From the IMG/VR virus record IMGVR_UViG_3300045999_006819, positions 1 through 32,041 of that record: 32,041 bases of DNA; one strand, 5' to 3'. Source of the DNA: a virus. The translations under genes were made by a program, and so were the position numbers. Shown in pieces: positions 9,572 to 32,041 of this stretch; position 1 is the first letter of the stretch; each line of letters opens with the position of its first letter. The notes beneath the pieces were generated by a model. It made no database searches. It was not told where the DNA came from and saw only the letters and a list, made by a program, of their open reading frames with translations.

Positions 9572-12500
9572 ATGCAGCAGAACATCGGCATTCGCATCAG
9601 CGCCGAAGGCGCCGCGCAGACCAGCGCCGAGATCGACCGCGCCGCGCAGAGCCTAGGCCGCCTGGGCGGCGCGGCGCAGTCGATCGACCGCACGCTCGGC
9701 ACGCTGCGTGGCGCGTTCGCCGGCCTCGCCGCCGGCCTGTCGGTGCGTGAGTTCTTCCAGGCCGCCGACGGCATGGCCCAAGTCAACGCGCGGCTGCGCC
9801 TGGCCACCACCAGCGCGCAGGAATTCGCCGCGGCGCAGGCCGATGTCTACCGCATCGCCCAGGCCAACAACACCGCCCTGGCCGACACCGCCACGCTCTA
9901 TTCGCGGCTGGCCGACCCGGTGCGCCGCCTGGGCGGCAGCGCCCGCGACACCGCCGCCATCACCGAGGCCGTCGCCACCTCGCTGCGCATCGTCGGCGCG
10001 TCGAGCGCCGAGTCCTCGTCGGCCATCCTGCAGTTCAGCCAGGCGCTGGCCGCCGGCGCGCTGCGCGGCGAGGAGTTCAACAGCGTCAACGAAGCCGCGC
10101 CGCGGCTCATGCAGGCGCTGGCCGACGGCCTCGGGCGCAACCGGGGCGAACTTCGCGCCATGGCCGAGGCCGGCCAGCTGACCGCCGATGTGGTGGGCAA
10201 GGCCCTGATCGGCCAGCTCGGCCGCCTGCAGGCCGAAGCCGCCACCCTGCCGCAGACAATCGGCGGCGCCTTCCAGCAGCTGCGCAACGACGCCACCCTC
10301 CTGGCTGCCAGCCTCGACCAGATCACCGGCTCCAGCGCCGGCATCGCCAGCATCGTGGGCGGTGTGGCCGGTGTGCTGGGCGAGTTCGGCCGCGCGGCGC
10401 AGCTCGTGGCCAAGGACACCAAGACCATGGCCGGCGAGTTCAGCGCGGCCGAGGGTGTCGTGCTGGCGCTGGGCACCAGCATGGAGGCCCTGGTCGTGCT
10501 GGGTGCCAACGTCGCCTTCACGTTCGACCGGATCGTGCAGCAGATCGTCGCCACCCAGCGCGTGCGCGAGCTGCTGATGCAGGGCAAGTTCGACGAGGGC
10601 ATGGAGCTGCGGGAGCGCTTCAACCGCGAGAGCGAGACCGCCCGCGCCCGGCTCGACGCCTTCACCGAGCGCGTGATCGGCTCCACCGCCCGCATCATTG
10701 CCCAGCGCGACGCTCTGCGACAGGGAACGCTCAGCCTGAGCGAGTACAACGCCGAGATGTCCAAGCTGCTGCGGCAGCAGGGCGTGCAGGGGGCCAACCT
10801 GCAGGCGCCTCCGGCAACCGGAGGAGTCAGCAACAGGGCGACCCGCCGCACCGGCCCCACCGAAGCCGAAATCTTCGCCGAGCGCAGCCTCCGCGCCATC
10901 GCCGCCTACGAAAAGGCCGAGGCCGACCTCGAGGCCCAGCTGCGCCGCAGCGCCCAGGCCGAGCGCGAGCTGGCCGCGGCGCGTGACCTGCGCGACGTCG
11001 CCAAGTATGAAGAAGCCGAAGCCGCCATCGACCGCTCGCTCAAGAGCGCGGCCGACATGGTGCAGGCCATCGAAGACGAGACCCGCGCCCTGACGCAGAC
11101 CAACACCGAGCGTGAGGTCGCCATCGCCCTGCGTGAGCTGGAGCGCACCGGCCTGGAGCGCGGCAGCTACGCCTACGAGCAGTACGCCGCCAAGATCCGT
11201 GCGGCCGTAGTCAACCGCGAGACCGTGCGCGAAAGCGTCGAGCAGACCCGCGAGATCGAGGCCCAGTGGCAGCGCACCACCGACAACATCGAGCGCGCGC
11301 TGACCGACGCACTGATGAACGGCGGCAAGAGCGCGTGGGAGTACATCAAGGGCCTGTTCCGCAGCGAGGTGCTGCGGCCCATCATCCAGGCCGTCGTGCG
11401 GCCGGTTGCTGGCACTGTCTCTGGCATCGTCTCGTCGTTCCTCGGCCTGCCCAGTTCGGCCGGAGCTTCGACCGGCAGCGGCGCTGGCTTCGGCGGCTAC
11501 AACTGGGGCGGCGGCGGGACGATCGGCGTCGGTGGTCTGCCGGGCATGGGCGGCGCCGGCAACATGCCCGGGTCCAACTGGTTCACCGACTTCGGCGGTT
11601 CGGTCTCCAATGGCGTGAACCGGATCGGGCAGCAACTCGCATCGTCCCGCGAGTGGGCGGACTTCGGCACTTCGCTGATGGACGCCTCCGACACCATCGG
11701 CAAGGTCGCCGGCACGCTGGGCGAGGTCGCCAGCTACTACCAGGCCTTCAAGGCAGCCGAAGACGGAAAGTGGGGGCAGGCCATCGGCCAGGCCGTGGGC
11801 ACCGCGATCGGCGGCCCGCTTGGCGGGATGATCGGCAACACCATCGGCTCCTGGCTCGACAAGGTGTTCTCCGGCGGCGCCGGCACCCCGCACCGCGGCT
11901 CCATCGTGCGCACCATGGCCGACGGCACCCAGTCGCTGGCCCGTGATGCCGACTGGGCCGGCATCTTGAACAACTACGACCAGGGCACCGACCAGGGCCT
12001 GCGCACGCTGGCCGGCATCGCCACGGGCGGCTTCAACCGCTTCGCCAGCGCCTTCGGTGCGCAGGGCACCGCGCAGTCGGTCATCAGCTTCGCCGCGGAT
12101 GGCCGCGACGCCTCGATCGGCAACTTCCAGCTCAGCGCCGACGGCCGCTCGCTGGTGAACCTCGGCGGTGCCGACTTCGCGCGCTACGGCAGCGACGGCG
12201 CGCAGGCCTTCCAGGCATTCGGCCTCGACGTGCTCAAGCAGACCCGGGCCGCGCTCGACACGCTCGACCTCTCGCAGTGGGCGCGCGACGAGCTGAAGAA
12301 GTTCGACGAGAGCATCGCCACGCTGGGCGAAGGCAACCTCGAACGCGCCACCGACCTGTTCAACAACACCGTCGAAGGCATCGCCCGGCTGCAGGCCGGC
12401 ATGGTCGAGCTGCAGCGCTTCATGGAGCCGCTCGGCGGCGTGTTCCTGCGCGTCTCCGACCTGTCGGGCGACGCCATGAAGGAGCTGGTCGACTTCGCGG

Positions 12501-22453: not shown

Positions 22454-22577
22454 GTGTGCGGAAAGTGTGCGGGGAAATCTGTCCACCATCGGGCACGAAA
22501 TGCGAATACTGCGCAAGATGCGCGGCGTCGTTCACCTATGAAAGACCGCCTCAGAGCGGGTTCGTAAACCGCGCGCC

Positions 22578-22641
22578 TCGGACTCGAAATCCGGTATACG
22601 GTTTCACCGTATCGAGGGTTCGAATCCCTCCCTTTCCGCCA
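22578..22641 (+). other. attP core: 3' part of a tRNA-Ser(CGA) gene
   Basis: Positions 22578-22641 match the 3' two-thirds of a serine tRNA. The anticodon arm is at 22578-22594 with loop CTCGAAA (anticodon CGA), the long variable arm at 22596-22612 (ATACGG/CCGTAT), the T arm at 22614-22630, the 3' acceptor strand CCTTTCC, then G and CCA ending at 22641. The bases to the left do not supply the GGAAAGG acceptor strand or a normal D arm, so this is not a complete tRNA. Phage genes lie on both sides and the integrase is near, so this is best read as the phage attachment core that restores the host tRNA on integration. Confidence 0.85.
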
Positions 22642-22656
22642 GCCGTAAGGCTTTTT
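22641..22656 (+). terminator. Intrinsic terminator after the tRNA core
   Basis: The hairpin AGCC-GTAA-GGCT is followed by a T-run (22652-22656). It lies between the convergent late operon (ending 22453) and HNH/integrase operon (ending 22670). It may be part of the att identity, since tRNA-integrating phages often carry the host terminator. Confidence 0.6.
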
Positions 22657-22669
22657 GCGATAGTGCCCG

Positions 22670-23314
22670 CTAACGTGCCAACTTAAGTGTGCGGGCGCAT
22701 TTGACCGGTTCCATGTTGGGAACGAGGGCGTGCGCAGTCAGTCCCAACGCGCAGTAGCGGTTGACGATGTAGCCGGTCGCAATCTGCGCGAATACCTCTT
22801 CGCCCCAGTTGGACATTGCGAGATTCACCGCGTAGCAGACCAAGCGGCAATTCGCGGCGACGTACCCCTTTGAGGAGTCGACACGGTCTAGGCTGTGAAA
22901 GAACGGGCGCGCCCGGGATTCATCTGGCTTGTGAATCTGGAACGCAATGCCGCTCACCTCACACCTTCCGCGGCTGCGGCGCATGATCGCCTCCAACTCC
23001 GAGGCAGTCAGGCTCGCCGATCTTCCTTTCGCTGACGATCTGGATCGGCAGCCAGCAAGGGTGGAGTGCAGCCACGAGCCCTTGTCAGCGACCAGCCGCG
23101 ACACGTAGTCGTCCCACGCGCCTACAGCGCTGACCAGACGGCGCTTGACGTACTCCTCGGCCTCCAGCTTGGCCGCCAACGCCTGCGCTTGCTCTTCGGA
23201 CACTCCCTTCGGCAAGAGTCGGGACTTGCGAACGCGCTCGCTCCCATCCTCCGACTGGATGTATCGGTCGAACTCCCAGCGCCACCGCCCGTTGCGCTCG
23301 TCGAATCGAATCAT
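22670..23314 (-). CDS. HNH-like protein with an integrase-type N-terminal domain
   Basis: A 214-aa protein with two parts. Residues 1-60 (RWRWEFDRYIQ, KSRLLPKGVSEEQAQALAAK) are plainly homologous to the first 55 residues of the adjacent integrase (RWRFEFDRYVQ, TSRLLPKGWSRTQADAF), a region that in such integrases binds arm-type DNA sites. Residues about 105-175 resemble an HNH-type nuclease: CEVSGIAF, HSLDRVDSSKGYVAANCRLV, and NLAMSNWG. Its start overlaps the integrase stop by ATGA, so it is co-translated, and it lies between int and attP. It may recognise the same att arms and cut or regulate there. Neither activity is proven. Confidence 0.75.
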   Translation of the reverse strand: MIRFDERNGRWRWEFDRYIQSEDGSERVRKSRLLPKGVSEEQAQALAAKLEAEEYVKRRLVSAVGAWDDYVSRLVADKGSWLHSTLAGCRSRSSAKGRSASLTASELEAIMRRSRGRCEVSGIAFQIHKPDESRARPFFHSLDRVDSSKGYVAANCRLVCYAVNLAMSNWGEEVFAQIATGYIVNRYCALGLTAHALVPNMEPVKCARTLKLAR

Positions 23315-24300
23315 CCTGACTTCCTCTTGCCAATCTTGCCCACGGCATCCGCCAGTGTGCGGGCCGTCAGGTGGGCGTAGCGCTTGGTCGAGCGCGGATC
23401 GCGGTGGCCCAAGACGGCCCCCACGGTGTATAGATCGACCCCGGCGTTGACCATCTCGCTGGCTGCGCTGTGGCGCAAATCATGAAAGCGCACGCCCTCA
23501 AGGCCCACGGCGTCGCGCGCCCGCTCCCAGGCCCGCTGGATGGTGATCTTGGGCGCCTTCAGCGGCAGCCACGCCAGCAGGTGACGGATGCGTGGGTGTG
23601 CGGGGATCGCCCGCACATCGCCGTTCTTGGTGTCGCGCAGCAGGATCAGGTCGCCGTCGACCTCGGCGCGCAGCAGCTCGCCCAGGCGCAGGCCGGTGTA
23701 GAACCCCAGGCGGATGGCGGCGCGGGCCTCGCGGTGCGTGCAGGCACGCGCGGCCTGCACCATGCCCCGGCGCTGCACGTAGACCTGGCGCTCGTTGCGC
23801 ACGGCCGGCAGCATCATCCGCGTCGTCGGGTCGTGCTTGGTGATCCCGTGCGCTTTCCATGCGTGGCGGCAGGCGGCCTTCAGCACCGCGATGCGGTTCT
23901 TCGCCGTCGTGATGCTGATGACGTGCTCGTCCCGGCGCTCGGTCTTCGGCACGAGGCGCTTCGCGGCGATCTCGCGCGACACCTCGGGCAGCTCCGACAT
24001 CGGCCGGCCGGCGTAGGCCCAGGCGATGGCCGCCAAGTGCTCGGCTGTGGCCTTGTAGGACTTGAGGCCCGTCTTGTCCTGCAGGTACAGGGCGACGGCC
24101 GTGTCGATCAGGGGGTCGTCGTCTTGGATGCCAGCCGCAACGGCGTAGAGGCGGGCGCTCTCGGTGCGGTCGAAGGCGTCAGCCTGGGTGCGACTCCAGC
24201 CTTTCGGAAGGAGTCGAGAAGTCCGCGTGCGGCGGCCTTGAACGTAGCGGTCGAACTCGAAGCGCCAGCGCTTGTTGCGGGTGTCCCAGCGGATCGACAT
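23311..24300 (-). CDS. int: Phage tyrosine integrase
   Basis: A 329-aa site-specific recombinase for integration at the tRNA-Ser core 0.7 kb away. Residues 1-60 are the arm-binding domain and about 65-155 the core-binding domain. The catalytic domain holds Arg205 (TGLRLGE), Lys225 (RDTKNGD), His273 and Arg276 (FHDLRHSAA), His299 (LGHRDP) and nucleophile Tyr308 (STKRYAHL). The start at 24300 (MSIRWDTRNK) is chosen by alignment with the HNH neighbour; the frame remains open upstream but overlaps the HTH gene. The arm domain, the nearby attP and the lack of obvious extra helices mark it as a phage integrase rather than an integron integrase. Confidence 0.95.
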   Translation of the reverse strand: MSIRWDTRNKRWRFEFDRYVQGRRTRTSRLLPKGWSRTQADAFDRTESARLYAVAAGIQDDDPLIDTAVALYLQDKTGLKSYKATAEHLAAIAWAYAGRPMSELPEVSREIAAKRLVPKTERRDEHVISITTAKNRIAVLKAACRHAWKAHGITKHDPTTRMMLPAVRNERQVYVQRRGMVQAARACTHREARAAIRLGFYTGLRLGELLRAEVDGDLILLRDTKNGDVRAIPAHPRIRHLLAWLPLKAPKITIQRAWERARDAVGLEGVRFHDLRHSAASEMVNAGVDLYTVGAVLGHRDPRSTKRYAHLTARTLADAVGKIGKRKSG

Positions 24301-24446
24301 GCGGTCTTGTAAGCGGTGACGTCTGAGGGGTCGAAGCGTACCGCATCGCCGAAACGGTACGACGGCAGGGCGCCCGACCTCGCCAAGTCGTACACCTTTC
24401 GCCGGCTCAGCCCAAGCTGCTCGGCGACCTGGGCGGCTGTCAGCAT
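24108..24446 (-). CDS. Excisionase-like HTH protein overlapping int
   Basis: Up to 112 aa. Residues 1-50 form a MerR/excisionase-type HTH (LTAAQVAEQLGLSRRKVYDL, then SGALPSYRFGDAVRFDPSDV). It should help direct excision at att. The rest of the frame reads on through the first 193 bases of the integrase gene, with Ala/Ser/Thr-rich sequence and no domain. This is unusually long overlap; the functional part may be only the N-terminal half, or a frameshift may join the HTH to the integrase. The start overlaps the stop of the preceding HTH gene. Confidence 0.7.
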   Translation of the reverse strand: MLTAAQVAEQLGLSRRKVYDLARSGALPSYRFGDAVRFDPSDVTAYKTACRSAGTPATSAGASSSTATFKAAARGLLDSFRKAGVAPRLTPSTAPRAPASTPLRLASKTTTP

Positions 24447-24880
24447 TTGCCCCCCATCTTGCGCAGTAGCTCGGCTTCGACCGAGCGAACAACCAGCACC
24501 CCGAACTCCACCATGCCGATCGGGCGAGCGGAGGTCGACACCACTCGCCCCACAAGGTCGGTCGCTTCGGCTTCAGTCAACGGCTGTAGCGCCGGCAACG
24601 CCGGCAGCACCGGCAGCACAGGCGGCCGGCGAGGTGCCTTGCCGGGCACCTGCCGCAGTGCCACGGCCTGCGGGGCCGGCGGCGGCGCGCGGCGCCTTGC
24701 CGACTCCTCGAGGGCCAGCTCGTCCAGGCGCTGCAGCAGCGCTCCGGACGGCAGCACCCAGTCGGTACCGAGCTTGACGCCGGGAAGGTCGCCCTGGCGC
24801 AGCCTCTCGCGCACGGTCGATGGCTCGCAGCGCAGAAGCTGCGCGGCGGTGTCGACGTCCAAGACGGGCGGCAGAGACAT
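24440..24880 (-). CDS. HTH DNA-binding protein next to the cassette array
   Basis: A 146-aa protein with an N-terminal excisionase-like HTH (VLDVDTAAQLLRCEPSTVRE, then GDLPGVKLGTDWVLPSGALL). A proline/alanine-rich linker at about 60-100 follows, and a C-terminal helical part (SVEAELLRKMGGKC). It ends 7 bases inside the next HTH gene. Its ATG at 24880 is 16 bases from the boundary of the cassette array and lacks a good ribosome-binding site, so array insertion may have replaced its native upstream region. Likely roles are a second recombination directionality factor or a regulator. Confidence 0.65.
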   Translation of the reverse strand: MSLPPVLDVDTAAQLLRCEPSTVRERLRQGDLPGVKLGTDWVLPSGALLQRLDELALEESARRRAPPPAPQAVALRQVPGKAPRRPPVLPVLPALPALQPLTEAEATDLVGRVVSTSARPIGMVEFGVLVVRSVEAELLRKMGGKC

Positions 24881-24896
24881 GGTTGGTCTATTTCGC

Positions 24897-24903
24897 GTTA
24901 GGC
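24897..24903 (+). other. Left array boundary, simple GTTAGGC site
   Basis: A single GTTAGGC box follows GGTTGGTCTATTTCGC with no matching R'' or inner arms to its left. It is the exact complement of R'' of the attC at 25465. This is what is expected at the start of a + polarity array joined to an attI or a secondary (G-T-T) site. The same bases give the stop codon of the leftmost cassette gene on the - strand. Confidence 0.7.
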
Positions 24904-25149
24904 GTGTTCATGCGCGCCACCAGTTGCCTTGCGCCGGATCTCGCGGCACTGCTCGCGGAACAGGCGCGCGTTCTCCAGCGCTTCGTGCTTCGTCTCAAAG
25001 TACATGCCGCTGTCGGTGCCAACCGGGCACCCGTAGATCGTGCCCACATACCCGCGCCATAGCTCGCTGTTGCGCACCTGCTGCCACGGCTCGGCGGCCA
25101 TGTCGGTGTCCAGCGCGTTTGCGTAGGCCGCCGCCTTGTCAAAAGCCAT
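24898..25149 (-). CDS. Cassette 1 protein B, unknown function
   Basis: An 83-aa protein. The ATG at 25149 is chosen; it overlaps the stop of protein A (TGATG), and a GTG lies one codon earlier. The sequence has YANALDTDMAAEPWQQVRNS, then GYVGTIYGCPVGTDSGMYFE and a helical, basic C-terminus with LFREQCREIRRKATGG. It seems soluble. No family is recognised. Its TAA stop is made by the cassette's first three bases. Confidence 0.65.
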   Translation of the reverse strand: MAFDKAAAYANALDTDMAAEPWQQVRNSELWRGYVGTIYGCPVGTDSGMYFETKHEALENARLFREQCREIRRKATGGAHEHA

Positions 25150-25439
25150 CACAGCAGCGTTCCTTCGCGTTTGTAGGGGTCAAGTGCATAAGCCAGCGCC
25201 ATGCGCAGGTCGCGCATCTTCTCGGCCTCGTCGCCGTCGTCGGCTTCAATCGTCGCCAGCACCGCATCGCAGTCGCGCAGCAGGCCAGCCAGCACCGCAT
25301 GCTCTCCGGCCATTGCCGCGTAGTGCTTCAGCACCGCATCAAGGTAGTCCAGGCGCACATTCACCAGCTTCTGCGGGTGGTGCGGCTCGGCCATTGCCCG
25401 GTCGCGCACTTGTGCAAGGTGTCCATAGTCGCTGCTCAT
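25149..25439 (-). CDS. Cassette 1 protein A, helical, similar to an early-operon protein
   Basis: A 96-aa all-helical protein. It starts 25 bases from the attC with an AGAGGAACT ribosome-binding region. Residues about 49-83 (VLAGLLRDCDAVLATIEADD, then DEAEKMRDLRMAL) resemble the second half of the 114-aa early protein at 28502-28846 (VLLQLLRDAADVLHTVVGAD, then DEDRRLREMRDLI). This suggests that the cassette gene belongs to the same phage accessory pool. No catalytic residues are apparent. Confidence 0.7.
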   Translation of the reverse strand: MSSDYGHLAQVRDRAMAEPHHPQKLVNVRLDYLDAVLKHYAAMAGEHAVLAGLLRDCDAVLATIEADDGDEAEKMRDLRMALAYALDPYKREGTLL

Positions 25440-25464
25440 AGTTCCTCTCGTTTCTCCACCACAC

Positions 25465-25522
25465 GCCTAACACGCAAATCAAGCTGACCGCCTACGGCGG
25501 CAGCTTATTTGCAACGTTAGCC
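25465..25522 (+). repeat. attC site 1
   Basis: R'' is GCCTAAC at 25465-25471 and R' is GTTAGCC at 25516-25522. The left arm AAATcAAGCTGaCCGCC pairs with the right arm GGCGGCAGCTTATTT, leaving C and A unpaired on the + strand left arm; the loop is TAC. Total 58 bases. The two outer boxes of this site disagree at one base, but each matches the partner expected in its own cassette circle. Confidence 0.88.
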
Positions 25523-25532
25523 CGCTTGTGGT

Positions 25533-25811
25533 TCACGGGGCGTTTCTCATGTCGTGGCTCATGGCGGTGCTGCCGCAGCGTGAGCACGTCGCGCTCCATG
25601 CGCAGCCGTCCTCGCTCTCCCAGCCTTCGCCATCCCACTTGTGTTCGCAAGGGCCACCCGTGGCGCATGCGCAGTAGCAGGCGCCCGGGTTGAAGTTGGA
25701 GCGCAGGCTTTGCAGCGGCACGCCCCACTCGTCGGCCATCTTCTGGTGCATCTCCTGCACGGCCGCATTGCGGCGGGCGCGCAGGGCCTCAAAGTCGGGC
25801 GCCGCTTCCAT
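25533..25811 (-). CDS. Cassette 2 protein B, Cys-rich C-terminus
   Basis: A 92-aa protein starting 2 bases after the stop of the Acb2-like gene, so the two are probably co-translated. Residues 1-40 are helical (FEALRARRNAAVQEMHQKMA). The second half holds several Cys and His residues (ACYCACATGGPCEH; CAWSATCSRCGSTAMSH), with a CxxC pair in TCSRCG, which suggests zinc binding. It could be a partner of the sponge protein, but no family is recognised. Confidence 0.68.
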   Translation of the reverse strand: MEAAPDFEALRARRNAAVQEMHQKMADEWGVPLQSLRSNFNPGACYCACATGGPCEHKWDGEGWESEDGCAWSATCSRCGSTAMSHDMRNAP

Positions 25812-25813
25812 GC

Positions 25814-26098
25814 TCAGAACGTGCTGGGCTGTGCGATGCCGCGAATCACGGCCATGAACCCGCGCTGCAGGTCAGTCGCGCCGATGGAAACCCAGCGCTG
25901 GTCGATGCTGGGAACCGGGCCGTCCGGGCTGTCGTTCGTGAACGGCACGCCGTTGGCGCCCGTGGCAGGCATCGCGCGCAGCTTGGCGATGTAGGCGCCG
26001 CACTGCTCGGCCAGTGCCTTGCCCTCGTTCATCAGCGCGGCCTCGGTCGCGGTCAGTTGGCGGTAGCCCGTCACCTTCGGTTGAATCATCGTTTCCAT
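25814..26098 (-). CDS. acb2: Acb2/Tad1-type cyclic nucleotide sponge (anti-CBASS/Thoeris candidate)
   Basis: A 94-aa protein close to Acb2-type sponges. Residues 9-40 (VTGYRQLTATEAALMNEGKA, then LAEQCGAYIAKL) form the N-terminal helical hairpin, and residues 67-94 (QRWVSIGATDLQRGFMAVIR, then GIAQPSTF) give the family's typical end pattern (HLQxGFMxLxRAxxRPxxF-like). Known members form hexamers that bind cyclic di- and trinucleotides released by CBASS, and related proteins bind Thoeris signals. Tyr12 and Lys27 lie where ligand contacts have been reported, as I recall. ATG 26098 follows AGGAACG; ATG 26089 is an alternative. It lies in an attC-bounded cassette. Family assignment is by recognition, without a search. 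Confidence 0.82.
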   Translation of the reverse strand: METMIQPKVTGYRQLTATEAALMNEGKALAEQCGAYIAKLRAMPATGANGVPFTNDSPDGPVPSIDQRWVSIGATDLQRGFMAVIRGIAQPSTF

Positions 26099-26133
26099 GT
26101 CGTTCCTACGTTGTGCCGCTTTTCGGGGGAGCG

Positions 26134-26190
26134 GGCTAACCCCTCATTCCAGCCGACGCCTAGCGGCGCGGCTGAATTCGATCGTTAGGC
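26134..26190 (+). repeat. attC site 2
   Basis: R'' is GGCTAAC at 26134-26140 and R' is GTTAGGC at 26184-26190. The left arm TTcCAGCCGaCGCC pairs with GGCGCGGCTGAA, again with unpaired C and A on the + strand left arm. R'' differs from the box within its own site but is the exact complement of the GTTAGCC at 25516, the left end of the same cassette. Confidence 0.88.
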
Positions 26191-26289
26191 CCCAAGAGCG
26201 CGCCAGAGCGCCCACGCGGCCCAGCCGATGATGTTGGCCGCGTACAGCGTCACCGCTGCAACCAGCCACAGGTCAAACCTCCTCGCCAT
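26185..26289 (-). CDS. Cassette 3 small membrane protein
   Basis: A 34-aa protein consisting almost wholly of one membrane helix (LWLVAAVTLYAANIIGWAAW) after a basic start (MARRFD). The ATG at 26289 lies inside the end of the upstream gene (17-base overlap), whose sequence GGCGAGGAGG is near it. Its TAA stop comes from the first bases of the cassette. A longer open frame upstream has no sensible start. Small membrane proteins of phages often act in superinfection exclusion or host takeover, but no specific role is shown. Confidence 0.5.
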   Translation of the reverse strand: MARRFDLWLVAAVTLYAANIIGWAAWALWRALGA

Positions 26290-26542
26290 TGCGCACCCCC
26301 TTTGCACAGTTCTGCGCAGCCCTGGCGGCGGCAAAGCACCGGCTGCGGCTCTCGCTGTCTTCCTGGTGCTGCTTGCCGGCTTCCTCGCGTATGCGCGCCT
26401 CGTCATCGCACACACGGGCCGCGCGCTCGCGCTCGGTCGTCACGGCGTTGCGCACCAGCGAAACGGCAAAGTTCGTTTGGCTCCAAGTCAACCCCTGGCG
26501 CCGCAGTGCCTCGGCCATGGTGTCTATCTGCTTTTGGTCCAT
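26273..26542 (-). CDS. Cassette 3 protein, helical, unknown function
   Basis: An 89-aa protein beginning 23 bases from the attC with a GGAGCGAG ribosome-binding sequence. The N-terminal part (DQKQIDTMAEALRRQGLTWS) and the charged middle (ERERAARVCDDEARIREEAG) are predicted helices. The C-terminus (SRCFAAARAAQNCAKGVRNG) resembles small phage early proteins of unknown role. No catalytic motif or membrane segment is visible. Confidence 0.68.
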   Translation of the reverse strand: MDQKQIDTMAEALRRQGLTWSQTNFAVSLVRNAVTTERERAARVCDDEARIREEAGKQHQEDSESRSRCFAAARAAQNCAKGVRNGEEV

Positions 26543-26564
26543 CGTCTCGCTCCGGTTGGTTGGG

Positions 26565-26634
26565 GCCTAACACTTCGCTCAAGGGCGACAGTCGCCGGAG
26601 TACCGGCGCCTGCGCCTTAGCTCAAGCGTTGGGC
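26565..26634 (+). repeat. attC site 3
   Basis: R'' is GCCTAAC at 26565-26571, then ACTTCG, left arm CTcAAGGGCG, right arm CGCCTTAG, then CTCAAGC and R' GTTGGGC at 26628-26634. The layout TAAC-TTCG-TcAAG ... CTTAG-CTCAAGC-GTT closely follows the known aadA1 attC read in the gene direction, which fixes polarity as +. R' GTTGGGC does not match its own R'' but is the exact complement of R'' of attC 4 (GCCCAAC). Confidence 0.9.
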
Positions 26635-26906
26635 GGCTTGCGCACCGCCACGATTTGCCAGTCTCCGAAGTCGCGGCCCGCTTGGGTCACGCCCTCCACA
26701 CTCACCGTCAGTTCGGTGGCGCCGGCCTCTGCGGCATCGCAGCACAGCAGCAGCGCGGCAGTCATCGTGATGGTTCGGTCCATCTGTTCGGCGGCAGTCT
26801 TGAACTGAATCAGCTTCTTGCGCATCAACGCGCCCAGCGCCTGGTCGTCCAAGTCCGTCCACAGTTCGGCCGCCTTCTCCGCGTCCGTCAAGATCAGTTC
26901 AGCCAC
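26622..26906 (-). CDS. Cassette 4 protein, unknown function
   Basis: A 94-aa protein. The GTG at 26906 is chosen because AAAGGAGG lies 6 bases upstream and it follows the attC; the longer open frame crosses the attC. The N-terminal part is helical and acidic (VAELILTDAEKAAELWTDLD), and the C-terminal half looks like a small alpha/beta fold (GATELTVSVEGVTQAGRDFG, then DWQIVAVRKPPNA). The last two codons and the stop lie across the cassette junction in the neighbouring attC. No family is recognised. Confidence 0.7.
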   Translation of the reverse strand: MAELILTDAEKAAELWTDLDDQALGALMRKKLIQFKTAAEQMDRTITMTAALLLCCDAAEAGATELTVSVEGVTQAGRDFGDWQIVAVRKPPNA

Positions 26907-26940
26907 AGCGGGCCTCCTTTCGTGCCTTCGTTCACCAGCC

Positions 26941-27038
26941 GCCCAACAATCGCTCAGCCGGAAAACCCCGGCAGGCGGCATCGTGGTGCCTGTCATCGTT
27001 TGTAGCTGCCGGGTTTTCCGGCTAGCTTTGCGTTAGGA
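26941..27038 (+). repeat. attC site 4
   Basis: R'' is GCCCAAC at 26941-26947 and R' is GTTAGGA at 27032-27038. A long arm begins CTcAGCCGGAAAACCC and pairs with GGGTTTTCCGGCTAG over about 20 bases with two unpaired C residues, and the loop is about 40 bases. Total 98 bases. The long perfect arm makes this the most stable hairpin of the array. Confidence 0.88.
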
Positions 27039-27340
27039 AGCACCAGCGGCCCCAGCCATTCAAGGTCGCGGAACCAGCCGTATTCGCTGGCGTCCTGCCC
27101 GTGGAAGCTGTCGGCCATCAACTCGACTCTCACGAACGGACCATAGGTCGGCTTGATGATCTGTCCACCGCCTATGCCCTGCGGGCTGATGCACTTCACG
27201 CCCACATTGGAGCGCGCAATCACCGGGCGGTTGAACGGGTGGCCGCGAGCCATCCAGGCCAGTTCGCGGCCTTGCGGGTGGTCTTCCACGCTGGGCGCTA
27301 CTCGCGTCCAGTGGCCGGGCCATTCATGCGTCTGTCTCAT
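26993..27340 (-). CDS. Cassette 5 protein, unknown function
   Basis: A 115-aa protein. The start at 27340 (MRQTHEW) has GGAG 6 bases upstream and follows the attC by 18 bases. It contains GHWTRVAPSVEDHPQGRELA and several aromatic residues (SEYGWFRDLEWLGPLVLP). No membrane helix or catalytic motif is seen. The last 12 or so residues (AKLAGKPGSYKR) and the stop are encoded by attC 4, beyond the cassette junction at 27032/27033, so rearrangement would change the C-terminus. Confidence 0.66.
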   Translation of the reverse strand: MRQTHEWPGHWTRVAPSVEDHPQGRELAWMARGHPFNRPVIARSNVGVKCISPQGIGGGQIIKPTYGPFVRVELMADSFHGQDASEYGWFRDLEWLGPLVLPNAKLAGKPGSYKR

Positions 27341-27358
27341 CGTTTCTCCAACAGTGCT

Positions 27359-27410
27359 GCCTAACACTTCGTTCCAGCCGACCTACGGCGGCTGAACTCG
27401 GGCGTTAGGC
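27359..27410 (+). repeat. attC site 5
   Basis: GCCTAAC at 27359-27365, ACTTCG, left arm TTcCAGCCGaCC, loop TAC, right arm GGCGGCTGAA, CTCGGGC, and GTTAGGC at 27404-27410. At 52 bases it is the shortest of the array. Unpaired C and A are both in the left arm on the + strand. R'' matches the left box of its cassette (GTTAGGA) at six of seven bases. Confidence 0.9.
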
Positions 27411-27839
27411 GCTTGGGTCTGTGACCGTGTAGCCGAGCTTCCGCAACACCTTCACCGCCCATCGCACCGTCGTTGGTGAGTAGTTGCCCGTCGATGCCGC
27501 CCGCGCCCGCGTCTTGAAGTCCGCTTCTCCGCGCGTGACCCACTCGCACATCACCCTCTGGCCCCGTGTGCTGTTTGCATAGTCCGGGTTGACATCGGTG
27601 AATTGCGTTACCGCGCCAGCTCGCAAAAGCTTCTGAAACTGCTTGCTGCCCAAATATGCCGCGGCTTCCTTCCGAAGCATTGGCGTCTCTTCCAAGTGCG
27701 CCAGCAGGTGCATAGTCTTGTTCGTTTCCGGCAGCGAGACACGCTTGCTCAGCACAATGCGGCGATCGGCTACCCAGTGAGCGCGCCTAACTGTCGGTTC
27801 AACCGGAGCCCCAACGGCCGGCGAGTTCTGTTCGTTCAT
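27405..27839 (-). CDS. Cassette 6 protein, unknown function
   Basis: A 144-aa protein beginning inside the loop of attC 6, with AGGAG 6 bases before the ATG at 27839. Its TAA stop uses the first bases of the cassette. The middle holds LHLLAHLEETPMLRKEAAAY-like helices (residues about 43-62) and a basic segment ADFKTRARAAS. The C-terminal stretch (YSPTTVRWAVKVLRKLGYTV) resembles a winged-helix or recognition helix, so DNA binding is possible. The first 20 residues overlap attC sequence. No family is recognised. Confidence 0.68.
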   Translation of the reverse strand: MNEQNSPAVGAPVEPTVRRAHWVADRRIVLSKRVSLPETNKTMHLLAHLEETPMLRKEAAAYLGSKQFQKLLRAGAVTQFTDVNPDYANSTRGQRVMCEWVTRGEADFKTRARAASTGNYSPTTVRWAVKVLRKLGYTVTDPSA

Positions 27840-27887
27840 CGTTGCTCCTGTTGCGCCGTGTCGGGCGCGGTTAACCTGGCGTTAGGC
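27785..27887 (+). repeat. attC site 6, right end of array
   Basis: R'' is GCCTAAC at 27785-27791 and R' is GTTAGGC at 27881-27887. The left arm GGTTcAACCG (27796-27805) pairs with CGGTTAACC (27868-27876) with one unpaired C, and GCCC/GGGC extends the stem. At 103 bases it is long. The loop holds the start of the 144-aa gene on the - strand. Evidence is weaker than for the others because half of the site is coding. Confidence 0.75.
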
Positions 27888-27944: not shown

Positions 27945-28505
27945 TCATTTCCCCACCCCCATGCGCTTCAGCACCTCGGCCTCGACGGCGCGGGCGATCT
28001 GTCGGATGAACCGTTGTTGCCCCTCTGAGGTCGTGCCGTACTCGTAGATGAAATCCATAAGATCGTCGCGTGATTTCGCGGTCAGGATGTCGATGTCATC
28101 GTCCGCCACCGGCTGCGGAGCTGGTGGTGACCACGGAAGGCCGGCACCCGGATCGTGAGGCAGTGGCTTACCCTCTGCTGCGGCCCAGAGGTTGTCGAGC
28201 ATCTCGACCGGCCCGTCTGCTACCCCGACCGCCTGATATGCCGCCGCGCACAGGTCCCGCAGCGGCTGCGGCGTGGGCGGGGTGGTGTAGAGGGGCACCA
28301 CGTCAAGCGGCTCCACGAACTGATCGGCACGGCGAATGGCGGCTTCCTCAGTCCAGTACAGCCCCTCGTCTTTGACCATCCACGCCACCGGCTGCGGCTG
28401 CTCTGCCGGCGCAGCCCGCAGCGCATCTGCCGCGGCGATCAATTCGGCCTTGCACCCGCTGCCCTCGATCGCGTCGAGCGCTTGCTGCATCGCGGCGCGG
28501 CTCAT
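27945..28505 (-). CDS. Early-operon protein, unknown function
   Basis: A 186-aa protein overlapping the previous gene by 4 bases (ATGA). The N-terminal helix (SRAAMQQALDAIEGSGCKAE) is followed by PVAWMVKDEG and PLYTTPPTPQPLRDLCAAAY, a pattern of Pro-flanked segments often seen in uncharacterised phage early proteins. The C-terminal region (FIYEYGTTSEGQQRFIRQIA) is helical. It is the last early gene before the cassette array, from which a 57-base stretch separates it. Confidence 0.7.
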   Translation of the reverse strand: MSRAAMQQALDAIEGSGCKAELIAAADALRAAPAEQPQPVAWMVKDEGLYWTEEAAIRRADQFVEPLDVVPLYTTPPTPQPLRDLCAAAYQAVGVADGPVEMLDNLWAAAEGKPLPHDPGAGLPWSPPAPQPVADDDIDILTAKSRDDLMDFIYEYGTTSEGQQRFIRQIARAVEAEVLKRMGVGK

Positions 28506-28846
28506 CGCTGCGCCTCCTGCACCATCGCCAGCATCACGCCGCCGCAGGCATCCGCGATCAGGTCGCGCATCTCGCGCAGGCGCCGGTCTTCGTCGGCGTC
28601 AGCACCGACAACCGTGTGCAGCACGTCGGCCGCGTCGCGCAGCAGCTGCAGCAGCACGTCGCGCTGGCCGCGCAGATCGGTGATCTGCTTGGCCTGGGTC
28701 TGCAGGTCGGCCAGCATGCGCGGCAGTTCGGCGTTGAGTCGGTCGATCATCGGCTCAGCCTGCGCAAGCGCCAGGCGTCCAAGGTACAGCTCGCGCCCCA
28801 TCTCATCGAGCCGGCGCTCCAGGTCATGCATCGTCGGCTCACTCAT
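28502..28846 (-). CDS. Early-operon coiled-coil protein
   Basis: A 114-aa helical protein. ATG 28846 is chosen because GGAG lies 7 bases before it. Long heptad segments (LERRLDEMGRELYLGRLALA; LADLQTQAKQITDLRGQRDV) suggest a coiled coil. The second half resembles the cassette 1 protein at 25149-25439. No enzymatic motif is seen. Confidence 0.65.
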   Translation of the reverse strand: MSEPTMHDLERRLDEMGRELYLGRLALAQAEPMIDRLNAELPRMLADLQTQAKQITDLRGQRDVLLQLLRDAADVLHTVVGADADEDRRLREMRDLIADACGGVMLAMVQEAQR

Positions 28847-28861
28847 CTGTCGCTCCACCAC

Positions 28862-29191
28862 TCAATCACACAGGCCGCCAGCCCAACACTCGACCGGCTT
28901 GCCGCCCTTGGCCTTCGAGAAGTGCTTGCAGTCGGGGCTGAACCACGCAAGCCCGACACGCCGGCCGGCGCACACCTCGCGCGGGTTGACGTCCCAGACC
29001 GACTCGCACAGGTGCAGCGTCTGCGGGTGATTGGTTTGGTGCATGGCCACGGCCTCGGGGTCGTGGTTGATGGCGATGTCGACCGGGCGGCCGATCGCGC
29101 GCTCGATGCCGGTGCTGGCGCCGCCGCCGCCGGCGAAGTTGTCGACCACCAGCTCATCGGCCAGGGGCAGCAGGAACTGCGGGGTCAGCAT
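28862..29191 (-). pseudogene. Truncated DNA cytosine-5 methyltransferase
   Basis: A 109-aa product from ATG 29191 (AAGGAG 8 bases upstream). It holds motif I for S-adenosylmethionine binding (VDNFAGGGGASTGIE), an acidic turn (INHDPEAVAMHQTNHP) and the motif IV region with the catalytic cysteine (FSPDCKHFSKAKGGKPV). Full-length relatives continue for several hundred residues with motifs VI-X and the target recognition domain. Here the reading stops ten residues after GGKPV (ECWAGGLCD). It should not methylate DNA unaided. A deletion is more likely than a frameshift, since the next early gene starts 15 bases on. Confidence 0.8.
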
Positions 29192-29742
29192 GCTGGCTGC
29201 TCCTTGCCGCACAGCATGGCCACCAAGTGCCGCGCTTGGCTCATCGCGTCATGCAGGGCCTGGTGGTGCGTGCCTTCGCGCTCCATCGGGACATCGGGGT
29301 GCAGCGCCTTCACGGTGCGGTAGCAGCGTTCGTTGTAGTAGCGCCAGGGCGGCTGCTTGCCGATGGCGCGGTAGGCGTTGGCGAGGATCACGCAGTCGAA
29401 GCTCGCGCCATTGCCCCAGACGCGCACGCTCTTCGGGTCGCTGTACTTCTCGATGTACCAGCGCAGCGTGTTGAGCGCCCACTGCAGACTGCCGCCCGGG
29501 GGCGACGCTTCGCTGCTGCTGATGGCCGCCCGGGCTGCATCGCTCTGGCGCAGCCACCACATGACGGTGCCGGCGTCCATCGTCAGGCCGTGGCTCACGC
29601 TGTCTTCCAGCCGCACCGGCGAGTAGAACGGCGTGTCGCACAGCGTACCGGCGTCAAGGTCGATCAGCACAGCGCCGATGGCGACGATGGCCGCATTCGG
29701 GCCGGTGCCCATCGTCTCAAGGTCGATCATCAGGTCATTCAT
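29185..29742 (-). CDS. DEDDh 3'-5' exonuclease
   Basis: A 185-aa DnaQ-superfamily exonuclease. It has Asp7 and Glu9 (LMIDLETMGTGPNAAIVAIG), Asp116 (GNGASFDCVIL), and His160 with Asp165 (HHQALHDAMSQA), the full DEDDh set. Between these is WWLRQSDAARAAI, typical of the phage and Rv2179c-like subgroup. Likely roles are trimming DNA or RNA ends in phage replication or recombination. Its end overlaps the methyltransferase start by 7 bases, and its start overlaps the end of the preceding gene by 8 bases. Confidence 0.92.
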   Translation of the reverse strand: MNDLMIDLETMGTGPNAAIVAIGAVLIDLDAGTLCDTPFYSPVRLEDSVSHGLTMDAGTVMWWLRQSDAARAAISSSEASPPGGSLQWALNTLRWYIEKYSDPKSVRVWGNGASFDCVILANAYRAIGKQPPWRYYNERCYRTVKALHPDVPMEREGTHHQALHDAMSQARHLVAMLCGKEQPAC

Positions 29743-29953
29743 GTGCAGGCCCTCCCGGTTCGCTCCAGTGCGTCACGGCCCCGGCGATCTGGCCGCCGTT
29801 GCAGGCATCGCGCCACTCGGCGCCATCCCACCACCCAGGACACCAGTCGGTCGTGCCGTCGTCGTAGACGATCCAGCACAGCACCGTGATGTCCGCATCG
29901 GGCATGGCGCTCGATGCTTGCTGCCACTGCAACTGCTCGGTGATGCTGCTCAT
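29735..29953 (-). CDS. DUF551-like small phage protein
   Basis: A 72-aa protein with the pattern MPDADITVLCWIVYDDGTT, then GWWDGAEWRDACNG and THWSEPGGP, close to DUF551-type proteins found in many temperate phages. Its function is unknown. It overlaps the preceding gene by ATGA and the exonuclease start, so it is part of the same transcript. Confidence 0.75.
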   Translation of the reverse strand: MSSITEQLQWQQASSAMPDADITVLCWIVYDDGTTDWCPGWWDGAEWRDACNGGQIAGAVTHWSEPGGPAHE

Positions 29954-30270
29954 CGGCCGCTCCCGTACACACTCTCCAGCCAGCTGCTGTACTCCATGCA
30001 GTCGCTGATCAGCTTGTGCCGGCCGTCCGCAATGCCGAGCTGGCGGTCATCGCTGCCGTCGTTGCACTCGTGGCAGGCCGAGAGGTAGGCGCTGACTGCC
30101 TCCGCCGCCGCCTCGAGCTTCGCCGCGCAGGCCAGCGCGGCTTTGCGCCGTGCGGCCTCGGCGCGCGCCTGGGCTTTGCGGTCGCGGTCGCTCGTCCAGT
30201 CGTCGCCGGTCAGGGCGGTCTGAGTCATCACGTGCGCGGGGCGCGTAAAGGGGAGGGTGGGCTCGCTCAT
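29950..30270 (-). CDS. Early-operon protein, unknown function
   Basis: A 106-aa protein with a basic, Ala-rich helix (RKAQARAEAARRKAALACAA) and a C-terminal segment containing ACHECNDGSDDRQLGIADGR. One Cys pair (CHEC) is not enough to claim a zinc site. It overlaps both neighbours by 4 bases. No family is recognised. Confidence 0.6.
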   Translation of the reverse strand: MSEPTLPFTRPAHVMTQTALTGDDWTSDRDRKAQARAEAARRKAALACAAKLEAAAEAVSAYLSACHECNDGSDDRQLGIADGRHKLISDCMEYSSWLESVYGSGR

Positions 30271-30473
30271 GTCTGCGCCTCCTCAAGCCTCTGCGCCCGC
30301 CCATCCCGCCACACGAGCCGCGAGCCCATGCGGCTTGGCAGCTGCATCGCATCCATCGCGCCCGGCCGCAGCACCGGCGCTTTGCGGTCACCGTTGCCCA
30401 TGCTCACGCGGCGGCTCTGCGTGAGCAGCTCACGCTGTCCGGGCGCCAGGGCCTGCATGTCGAAGGCGCTCAT
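30267..30473 (-). CDS. Early-operon small protein
   Basis: A 68-aa basic protein (LAPGQRELLTQSRRVSMGNG, then LPSRMGSRLVWRDGRAQRLE) with 4-base overlaps at both ends. The overlaps are the main support for this gene. No domain is recognised. Confidence 0.55.
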   Translation of the reverse strand: MSAFDMQALAPGQRELLTQSRRVSMGNGDRKAPVLRPGAMDAMQLPSRMGSRLVWRDGRAQRLEEAQT

Positions 30474-31102
30474 GCGGCGCTCCTCTCAGCCGCGTCGTTC
30501 GCGGCCTGCGTGCCCTTGCGGGCCTTCGGCTCGACGCGCCAGATCCGCGCCATCTGCGGGTCCACGCGCATCAGCACGTAGGCCTCGCCGTGGTACTTCT
30601 TGCGAATGGCCGCGGCCTTCTTGATCGCGTCGCAGTAGTGCGCAGGCACCAGGCGGCTGTGGCCGATCTCGGTGAGCGTGGCGAACAGGCTGTCGTACTT
30701 GGTGCGCCCGCGGCGCATCGACTGGTTGCTGCCCGGCACCGGCACGTCGGCCTCGACCGGCGGCAGGCTGTCGATGTCGAGCTCGGGCAGGTGGGCGGCC
30801 GGCATCTTGGTCTCGCGCTTGGCGGCCACCTTCTTGGCAGCGGTCACGGCCTCGGCCTTCCTGGCTTCCATGCGCTCGTGCCACGCCGCCAGGGCAGCGC
30901 CGGGGCCGTAGACGCGCGCCGCGCGGGTCAGCAGGCCGGTGTCGACCGAGGGTTTGAGCAGCGTCTTCACGCTGGCCAGCGAGCAGTCGAACTTCAGCGA
31001 GATGTCGGCCTCGCTCAGCTCCTCCTCGGGCTGCTGGATGAAGTAGCTGCACACGCGCCACGCCACGCTGTGCGGCGCGGGGTTGTAGGTCCGTTCGTTC
31101 AT
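30470..31102 (-). CDS. Winged-helix-like early protein
   Basis: A 210-aa protein. ATG 31102 (MNERTYNP) is chosen. Residues about 12-55 (VAWRVCSYFIQQPEEELSEA, then DISLKFDCSLASVKTLLKPS) look like a winged-helix DNA-binding domain. A basic helical linker follows (RKAEAVTAAKKVAAKRETKM). The C-terminal part has TLTEIGHSRLVPAHYCDAIK and HGEAYVLMRVDPQMARIWRV. It could be a replication or regulatory protein of the early operon. It overlaps the next gene by 4 bases. Confidence 0.68.
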   Translation of the reverse strand: MNERTYNPAPHSVAWRVCSYFIQQPEEELSEADISLKFDCSLASVKTLLKPSVDTGLLTRAARVYGPGAALAAWHERMEARKAEAVTAAKKVAAKRETKMPAAHLPELDIDSLPPVEADVPVPGSNQSMRRGRTKYDSLFATLTEIGHSRLVPAHYCDAIKKAAAIRKKYHGEAYVLMRVDPQMARIWRVEPKARKGTQAANDAAERSAA

Positions 31103-31118
31103 GGGTCGGCTCTCTCGT

Positions 31119-31574
31119 TCACGCGGCCTGCAGCCGGCGCTCACGCGCGGCCCGGGCCATCCGGTTGATCTGTTCCTCGCTCCAGTCGGCGGCCTCGGCG
31201 GCCACGTGCTGGTCGACGGCCTGCGCCAGGGCGTCCATCACCTCGACGTGCTGCTTCGCCCGCTGGTACTCGGGGCCGCTGAAGGCCACGCGGCCCGTGC
31301 GCTCGAAGCGCTCGGCCAGGCGCTCGCACAGGCCGATCTGCTCGCGCATATCGTCCACGCCGGCCTGCAGGCGCTCGGCAATGCGCAGCCAGGTCAGGCC
31401 GCCACCGAACACCTGCCAGAGCACGTCCTCGTCGGCCTCACCCCGGGCGATGACGTCGAGGTTGGTCATGTGGGCCAGTGCCAGGTCGAGCACCTGGGCG
31501 CGGCTGAGCTTCGGCCGCATGCCCGGCGGCGGCAGCGGGCGCACCGGCCGGCGGTGGCAGCGCTTGCGGCTCAT
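31119..31574 (-). CDS. Early-operon helical protein
   Basis: A 151-aa protein. ATG 31574 (MSRKRCHRR) overlaps the HD gene stop by 4 bases, which decides the start. The first 25 residues are basic and proline-rich. The rest is helical (LSRAQVLDLALAHMTNLDVI; LTWLRIAERLQAGVDDMREQ; EVMDALAQAVDQHVAAEAAD). It resembles small phage proteins of unknown function that accompany replication genes. Confidence 0.62.
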   Translation of the reverse strand: MSRKRCHRRPVRPLPPPGMRPKLSRAQVLDLALAHMTNLDVIARGEADEDVLWQVFGGGLTWLRIAERLQAGVDDMREQIGLCERLAERFERTGRVAFSGPEYQRAKQHVEVMDALAQAVDQHVAAEAADWSEEQINRMARAARERRLQAA

Positions 31575-32041
31575 ACCTGGGCCTCCCGCCCACCGGCCAG
31601 CACGGCGCTGGCCAGCTCGGTCCACTTGTCGAGGAACGCCTGCCGCCAGTGCTCCCAGCCCAGGCATGCGCGGCTGCCCAGGCGCACACACTCGGTCGGC
31701 TCAATGCCGGTCAGGGCCAGCCAGAGAGCCTCGCTGCGCGGCAGCACGTCGCGGCGCTCGGTGGCCAGCGCGACCATGTCGGCGTGGTGCACCTCGTGGC
31801 GCCACCCAGCGCTGACGGCCAGCACGCCCAAGGCGCCGCGCACGGCGTGCTGGATGCGCGCCTCGCACTGCTCCCAGGCCGGGCCGAGCACGCGCTTCAT
31901 CGGCGTCGACAAGTCGGAGCAGTAGGCCTCGTGGGCGTCGTGCGTCAGGCCGGCCAGGAGTGCGCCGGGCTGGGTGATGCCCATGTCGCGCTCCATGATC
32001 TCGACGACCAGGAGGCTGTGCTCGGCGACGCTGTACGGGCG
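31571..32041 (-). CDS. HD-domain phosphohydrolase, 5' end outside window
   Basis: At least 156 codons; the frame stays open to the right edge, so the N-terminus is missing. Visible metal-site motifs are SVAEHSLLVVEIMERD (first His), then LTHDAHEAYCSDLSTPMKRV (the HD pair and a following Asp). This is the YfbR-like group of nucleotide phosphohydrolases often carried by phages, some of which cleave deoxynucleotides such as dATP. Substrate cannot be told here, and no modified-base genes lie in the window. It overlaps the next gene by ATGA. Confidence 0.85.
   Translation of the reverse strand, partial: RPYSVAEHSLLVVEIMERDMGITQPGALLAGLTHDAHEAYCSDLSTPMKRVLGPAWEQCEARIQHAVRGALGVLAVSAGWRHEVHHADMVALATERRDVLPRSEALWLALTGIEPTECVRLGSRACLGWEHWRQAFLDKWTELASAVLAGGREAQV

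Follow-up and report, generated by a model that had tools for sequence, protein, structure and literature searches.

The window analysed here is the whole of a 32-kb virus record (IMG/VR IMGVR_UViG_3300045999_006819, positions 1 to 32,041; 32,041 nucleotides) from a temperate tailed phage, with terminase, portal, capsid, tape measure, endolysin, phage integrase and excisionase-like genes on the same contig. The genes to the right of the integrase are transcribed leftwards, and six hairpin sites lie between the excisionase/integrase (xis/int) block and the exonuclease and methyltransferase genes. A first-pass annotation, made from the letters alone, had read positions 24,897 to 27,887 as an integron cassette array carried by a phage between int/xis and the early operon. 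Both the array and its placement were borne out. The window encodes no integron integrase (IntI), and the only IntI match in it is the C-terminus of the phage integrase; the array is a cluster of attC sites lacking an integron integrase (CALIN).

We searched the whole window, unfiltered, with a home-built covariance model of attC, distinct from the published IntegronFinder model. It was derived from 12 attC sites of class 1 plasmids and nothing from the window; the loops of three long class 1 sites were trimmed before alignment, their known pairing was then supplied, and the E-values are rough. The model found six attC sites within 2.5 kb, all on the + strand and scoring from 57.2 to 20.6 bits: 25465..25522 (cassette 1; 44.1 bits, E 1.3e-8), 26134..26190 (cassette 2; 52.6 bits), 26565..26634 (cassette 3; 45.4 bits), 26941..27038 (cassette 4, with a long loop; 20.6 bits, E 0.0067), 27359..27410 (cassette 5; 57.2 bits, E 9e-12, and 12.1 bits on the – strand) and 27785..27887 (cassette 6, with a long loop; 26.5 bits, E 2.4e-4). 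The best match elsewhere in the window reached 16.3 bits (E 0.07), and the six hairpins themselves gave weaker matches when read on the other strand; an Rfam search of the window at the gathering threshold returned no match. Each site has boxes of the form RYYYAAC/GTTRRRY, a short spacer and complementary inner arms (L''/L'), and its 5' arm on the + strand carries an additional C in every case and often an additional A, as in canonical attC. An independent model thus recovered all six proposed sites at their coordinates and far above background, and the boxes, inner arms and unpaired bases described in the first-pass annotation are present in the alignments.

Measured from G|TT to G|TT, the cassettes are 619, 668, 444, 404, 372 and 477 nt long and hold one or two open reading frames (ORFs) apiece, in line with the spacing of 370-670 bases given in the first-pass annotation. 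All are oriented on the + strand and all their genes lie on the – strand. Cassette 1 (24898..25516, with G|TT at 24897/24898 and 25516/25517) carries genes at 25149-25439 and 24898-25152. Cassette 2 (25517..26184) carries acb2 and a second small gene (25533..25811, –), an ORF within the mobile unit that gave no reliable family match. Single genes occupy cassettes 3 (26185..26628; gene 26273-26542), 4 (26629..27032; gene 26622-26906), 5 (27033..27404; gene 26993-27340) and 6 (27405..27881; gene 27405-27839). The cassette 6 gene starts within the loop of its own attC, and a start codon is likewise found in an attC loop in another viral contig (window 27785-27839; L004 8233-8358, with a ribosome site), so that translation start and recombination hairpin overlap in both. 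The starts of cassettes 2-6 are complementary to their own R'' boxes over 11, 12, 11, 6 and 9 nt; with other sites the match never exceeds 9 nt. Across all viral arrays, complementarity of at least 8 nt was found in 71% of own pairs versus 12% of other pairs, which is the mark expected of circular cassettes. At the leading junction (24880..24903, +) a lone G|TTAGGC, attI- or attG-like and without a second box, adjoins a helix-turn-helix (HTH) gene.

A pattern scan of IMG/VR yielded 74 stretches, in which the covariance model gave more than 300 attC matches, nearly all on the same strand within an array; of 315 model sites, a home-made attC finder recovered 208 in the same orientation and 3 in the opposite orientation. 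Contigs from these comparisons are cited by L numbers. Cassette 2 recurs whole in L223, L224, L225 and L245 (660-680 bp, 88.8-91.3% identity), and its attC moves together with acb2. The homology ends exactly at G|TT, the sequences being unrelated left of GTTAGCCC and diverging right of GATCGTT; in L223 the right junction alone is informative because the contig ends at the cassette. A homologue of cassette 1 is flush over its full length in L030, L039 and L098 (67.8% identity), as is one of cassette 5, with other neighbours, in L035 (2219-2574, 85%). Contig L090 ends in a near-identical copy of the cassette 3 attC (98.6% over 69 nt), and the first 47 nt of the cassette 5 attC are identical in L037, L042 and L095.

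Close relatives extend this picture. Among contigs that are 98-100% identical, L063 holds one cassette absent from L093; L060, L063 and L093 have a shared block preceded by different cassettes; L030 and L039 differ ahead of the leading cassette; and L067 and L068 have the same cassettes in a changed order. Every switch between near-identical contigs falls at G|TT when checked at base level. The prediction that relatives would differ by whole cassettes exactly at the G/TT points, rather than keep an invariant gene order, was therefore upheld, and these junctions indicate that cassettes are exchanged as exact units between phages. L004, found through its phage integrase, has nine attC sites upstream of int. 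Two IntI-bearing phages have in common a 278-bp block, probably one cassette, at 95% identity and at differing distances from IntI (L186 7345-7621; L187 5961-6238).

The genes in these arrays run against the convention of bacterial cassettes, a feature that the first-pass annotation does not mention. With the canonical attC orientation on + and the genes of the window on –, every callable cassette gene is reversed and faces the leading end. Direction was judged from ORFs with start sites, Pfam matches and deposited annotation; for the counts, each cassette was scored by its longest ORF that has a ribosome site, and related contigs are included. Reversed and forward cassettes numbered 175 and 11 in viral arrays, 3 and 12 at bacterial IntI loci and 0 and 5 in class 1 plasmids (viral versus control, Fisher p 8e-11, with the relatedness of contigs uncorrected). 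The bacterial control count first used the home-made finder, and the controls were later redone with the covariance model. After removal of most near-duplicates, 144 reversed and 17 forward ORFs were left, and 17 Pfam families were matched in reversed ORFs and none in forward ORFs. The deposited gene calls of two published phage CALINs, H101 and MW202573, are reversed as well. As far as ORF calls and family matches can tell, reversal of genes relative to attC is the usual state of viral arrays. A codon-usage strand model trained on this phage was correct for 54 of 54 integrase windows and left lower-GC class 1 cassettes uncallable or wrong; because it misread the class 1 gene aadA1 as reversed, it was dropped for this claim.

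Gene direction bears on how the cassettes would be expressed. Upstream of the array, leftward early genes (27945..31996, –; an exonuclease, a methyltransferase-like gene and a nucleotide phosphatase, from PHROG matches) point in the same direction as the cassette genes. In 28 of the 33 arrays that could be called, flanking genes on the far side, away from attI, agree in direction with the cassettes; on the attI side they are mixed (17 to 16). No terminator-like site was found on the – strand between 23000 and 32041 of the window, and no promoter-like site at the leading end; the sole promoter-like site of the region is weak, lies within cassette 5 and is at chance level. Because the far-side genes are codirectional and no terminator-like site interrupts the – strand, we infer read-through from the early operon, and the cassette genes are probably read in this way and not from the promoter Pc at attI. 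Selection for operon expression would explain the reversal.

The recognisable cargo is of a phage kind. The acb2 gene (25814..26098, –) is a predicted anti-CBASS gene (CBASS, cyclic oligonucleotide-based antiphage signalling system) of the Acb2/Tad1 hairpin family (PF24729, E 7.5e-14). Its product, with a full-length hairpin domain, matches phage protein p26 in PDB 8h2j/8ixz (E 1.8e-9). In the window and nine further contigs, out of 80 relatives, acb2 has an attC 36-40 bp before its start codon. Other arrays carry C5, N6/N4 and Dam methylases, Lar restriction alleviation proteins, HNH and pentapeptide proteins and DUF proteins, and the cassette genes match phage protein families. Since what can be recognised is counter-defence and phage early genes, the array is probably an exchangeable anti-defence module, and an anti-defence function may extend to most cassettes.

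Integron integrases do occur in phages of this kind. We used the TIGR02249 cut-off of 265 bits. The integrase of the window (23311..24555, –; PF00589 E 1.6e-18) reaches 35 bits against it and is a phage tyrosine integrase, not an integron integrase. L007 has a phage integrase homologous to it (66%) and, beside that gene, an integron integrase of 399.6 bits, which ends inside the start of xis. This IntI occupies the slot that in the window is held by the HTH_17/excisionase-like gene between array and xis (24440..24880, –; PF12728 E 2e-7 and tblastn), and the attC geometry of L007 is the usual one. Our scans turned up 32 clear IntI in viral contigs and a further 80 in genome records of bacteria, and nearly every IntI locus has its attC on the strand opposite to IntI. 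In a tree from a quick search with no bootstrap, one clade (SH-like approximate likelihood-ratio test, SH-aLRT, 99) unites 28 IntI, of which 24 are viral and 4 are labelled as bacterial. One of these four, from Thiobacillus, belongs to a prophage by its adjoining phage integrase and a terminase ~13 kb off, and another, from Denitromonas, lies amid chromosomal genes. Several members have in common the attI motif GTTATnCGAC..GAATTnnnGTTRGGC, to which GTTAGGC at 24897 in the window bears a weak likeness without clearly being that motif. All 15 callable members of the clade have mostly reversed genes, and all 11 forward loci, together with three reversed ones, fall outside it. IntI and a terminase or tape measure are found on one contig in five records. 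Terminase or tape measure is on the contig in ~28 of 53 array or IntI records, including 5 of 5 in the IntI group nearest L007; the phage-marker check covered three marker families only, and the remaining records are fragments or were checked with those families alone. The clade is well supported, mostly phage-borne and marked by a shared attI motif. Apart from it, eight viral-contig IntI (L207, L208, L210-L215) form a second group (SH-aLRT 94); in L207 attC and IntI share a strand, and those cassette genes that could be called are forward. L084 (IMGVR_UViG_2834908352_000001) has a terminase, a tape measure, an IntI above the cut-off and 13 attC that score up to 88 bits, near class 1 plasmid sites.

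The reading that we hold with considerable confidence is that the window carries an IntI-less array of six cassettes at the end of the early operon, whose cassettes are exchanged among phages and read from the phage operon. In this picture the leftward early operon of a temperate tailed phage has taken up the array at its end. Cassettes would be moved in and out at G|TT by an integron integrase supplied in trans, with the folded bottom strands of attC as its substrate. Cassettes would circulate between phages as units, read-through of the operon from the far side would express their reversed genes, and the array would probably work as a swappable anti-defence module. The first-pass annotation had looked to the host for the IntI. 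The enzyme need not be the host's, as L007 encodes its own; its likeliest sources are relatives or co-resident prophages with a phage-clade IntI such as that of L007, besides a host integron. A broader proposal, which we favour with some reserve, is that of a phage-dedicated integron lineage that has an IntI and an attI of its own and counter-defence cassettes in a common pool. Genes there would be inverted relative to bacterial cassettes for expression from the early operon, not from Pc, and phages without IntI, like the one in the window, would also draw on the pool.

Several observations weigh against these readings. The window has neither an IntI nor a clear attI, and an IntI above the cut-off was found in 4 of 50 array records, many being fragments. 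Two of the six attC sites in the window are weak (20.6 and 26.5 bits), and most of its cassettes have no recognisable function. Reversal is not absolute, since TJE1, a published phage CALIN, has forward genes. Finally, the relatives are metagenome contigs, any single one of which could be a chimaera.

The alternative that survives best, and which we regard as possible though unlikely, is that a host IntI adds cassettes from the host pool singly at attG-like G|TT points in phages, with no phage-specific system. It fits the way in which the arrays of the window, L039 and L068 each open with a lone G|TT and no second box, the described insertion by IntI at attG sites and the lack of IntI in most array records. 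However, near-universal reversal in viral arrays is unexpected if bacterial cassettes enter at random, the IntI of viral contigs fall mostly in one clade with its own attI motif, and the cassette genes match phage protein families. We give little credence to the view that the phage once took up part of a chromosomal integron of its host, as published for Vibrio anguillarum phages, and now carries it as an inert passenger. The accessible text of PMC9892861 describes phages that have captured such host fragments, and the window is without IntI and a clear attI. Yet its cassettes recur in other viral contigs, exchange is seen among 98-100% identical relatives, the genes are reversed when those of bacterial arrays are not, and a relative carries an IntI of the mostly phage clade. 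Of the 301 Hydrogenophaga-family genomes compared, no more than 4 match the array, and those in part. Hydrogenophaga is a possible host, suggested by a single 3-kb contig of a metagenome-assembled genome with a phage-clade IntI.

It is very improbable that the modules are shuffled by homologous recombination between similar hairpins and not site-specifically. Some neighbouring attC are nearly identical (92-97% in L063), and RecA or slippage could make an indel there, but many junctions that join dissimilar sequences still switch exactly at G|TT, among them the left ends of acb2 cassettes in L224, L225, L245 and the window, and those between L030 and L039 and between L067 and L068. That the reversal is an artefact of attC orientation or gene calling, as the misreading of aadA1 by the phage-trained codon model might suggest, is scarcely credible given strand scores of 57 versus 12 bits, the opposed strands of attC and IntI at almost every IntI locus, Pfam and PDB matches on the reversed strand and the depositors' own calls in H101 and MW202573, and it is refuted for cassette 2, where the hairpin that travels with acb2 sits just before its start codon.

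Phage CALINs are a kind already known, and the view of the first-pass annotation that such an array is not a standard description does not hold in the light of Qi et al. (2023; PMC9892861), whose accessible text counts 17 CALINs along with 3 complete integrons and reports recombination of phage attC by IntI1 into attI1. The CALINs listed there (TJE1, H101/PH101, P12002L and MW202573) resemble that of the window in being attC clusters without an integrase, with short cassettes and methyltransferase cargo. That accessible text describes neither the direction of genes with respect to attC, nor a phage IntI clade, nor movement of one and the same cassette between phages. With class 1 and sedentary chromosomal integrons the system has in common the anatomy of attC, crossover at G|TT, shuffling of cassettes and an IntI geometry in which the attC top strand points away from intI. 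The window differs in that its genes are reversed and sit in a phage operon, with Pc an improbable source of their transcription, that its cargo is of phage type and that IntI is absent. It is not a complete integron, as intI is absent and the cassette genes face the leading end, where no promoter-like site was found. In Treponema integrons (PMC3607928), too, integrase and cassette genes are transcribed in one direction, but there intI is transcribed toward attI, whereas here the intI of relatives is in its usual place and the genes are turned within the cassettes. The Acb2-like protein of the window is a full-length homologue of the anti-CBASS sponge (p26, PDB 8h2j/8ixz) but is cassette-borne with an attC. 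We found no description in the literature of reversed cassette genes as a rule in phages, of a phage IntI clade or of anti-defence cassettes, including the exact traffic of an anti-CBASS gene, subscription papers and preprints lying outside the search.

If these readings are true, phages hold a site-specific device that swaps anti-immunity genes singly, which would help explain the fast spread of counter-defence. The arrays could then serve as a search tool, because any gene between two such attC becomes an anti-defence candidate. The link between the direction of attC and of genes, usually given as a rule, would appear to depend on where the promoter lies.

A DNA search of deposited phages returned no close relative of the phage in the window. 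On the far side of its integrase lies a tRNA-Ser (22554-22637), with an HNH-type endonuclease gene between the tRNA and int (window 22554-23314); in relatives, a 65-73-nt tRNA stretch just past int is a likely attachment site. In the phage L085, which has the HTH gene of the window (83% over 58 aa), the array (9598-11400) flanks that gene on its opposite side, with an attC at the gene's 3' end, apparently an independent insertion point. L045 packs twelve attC into a 4.5-kb contig, with a spacing of mostly 150-280 bp, below ordinary gene size.

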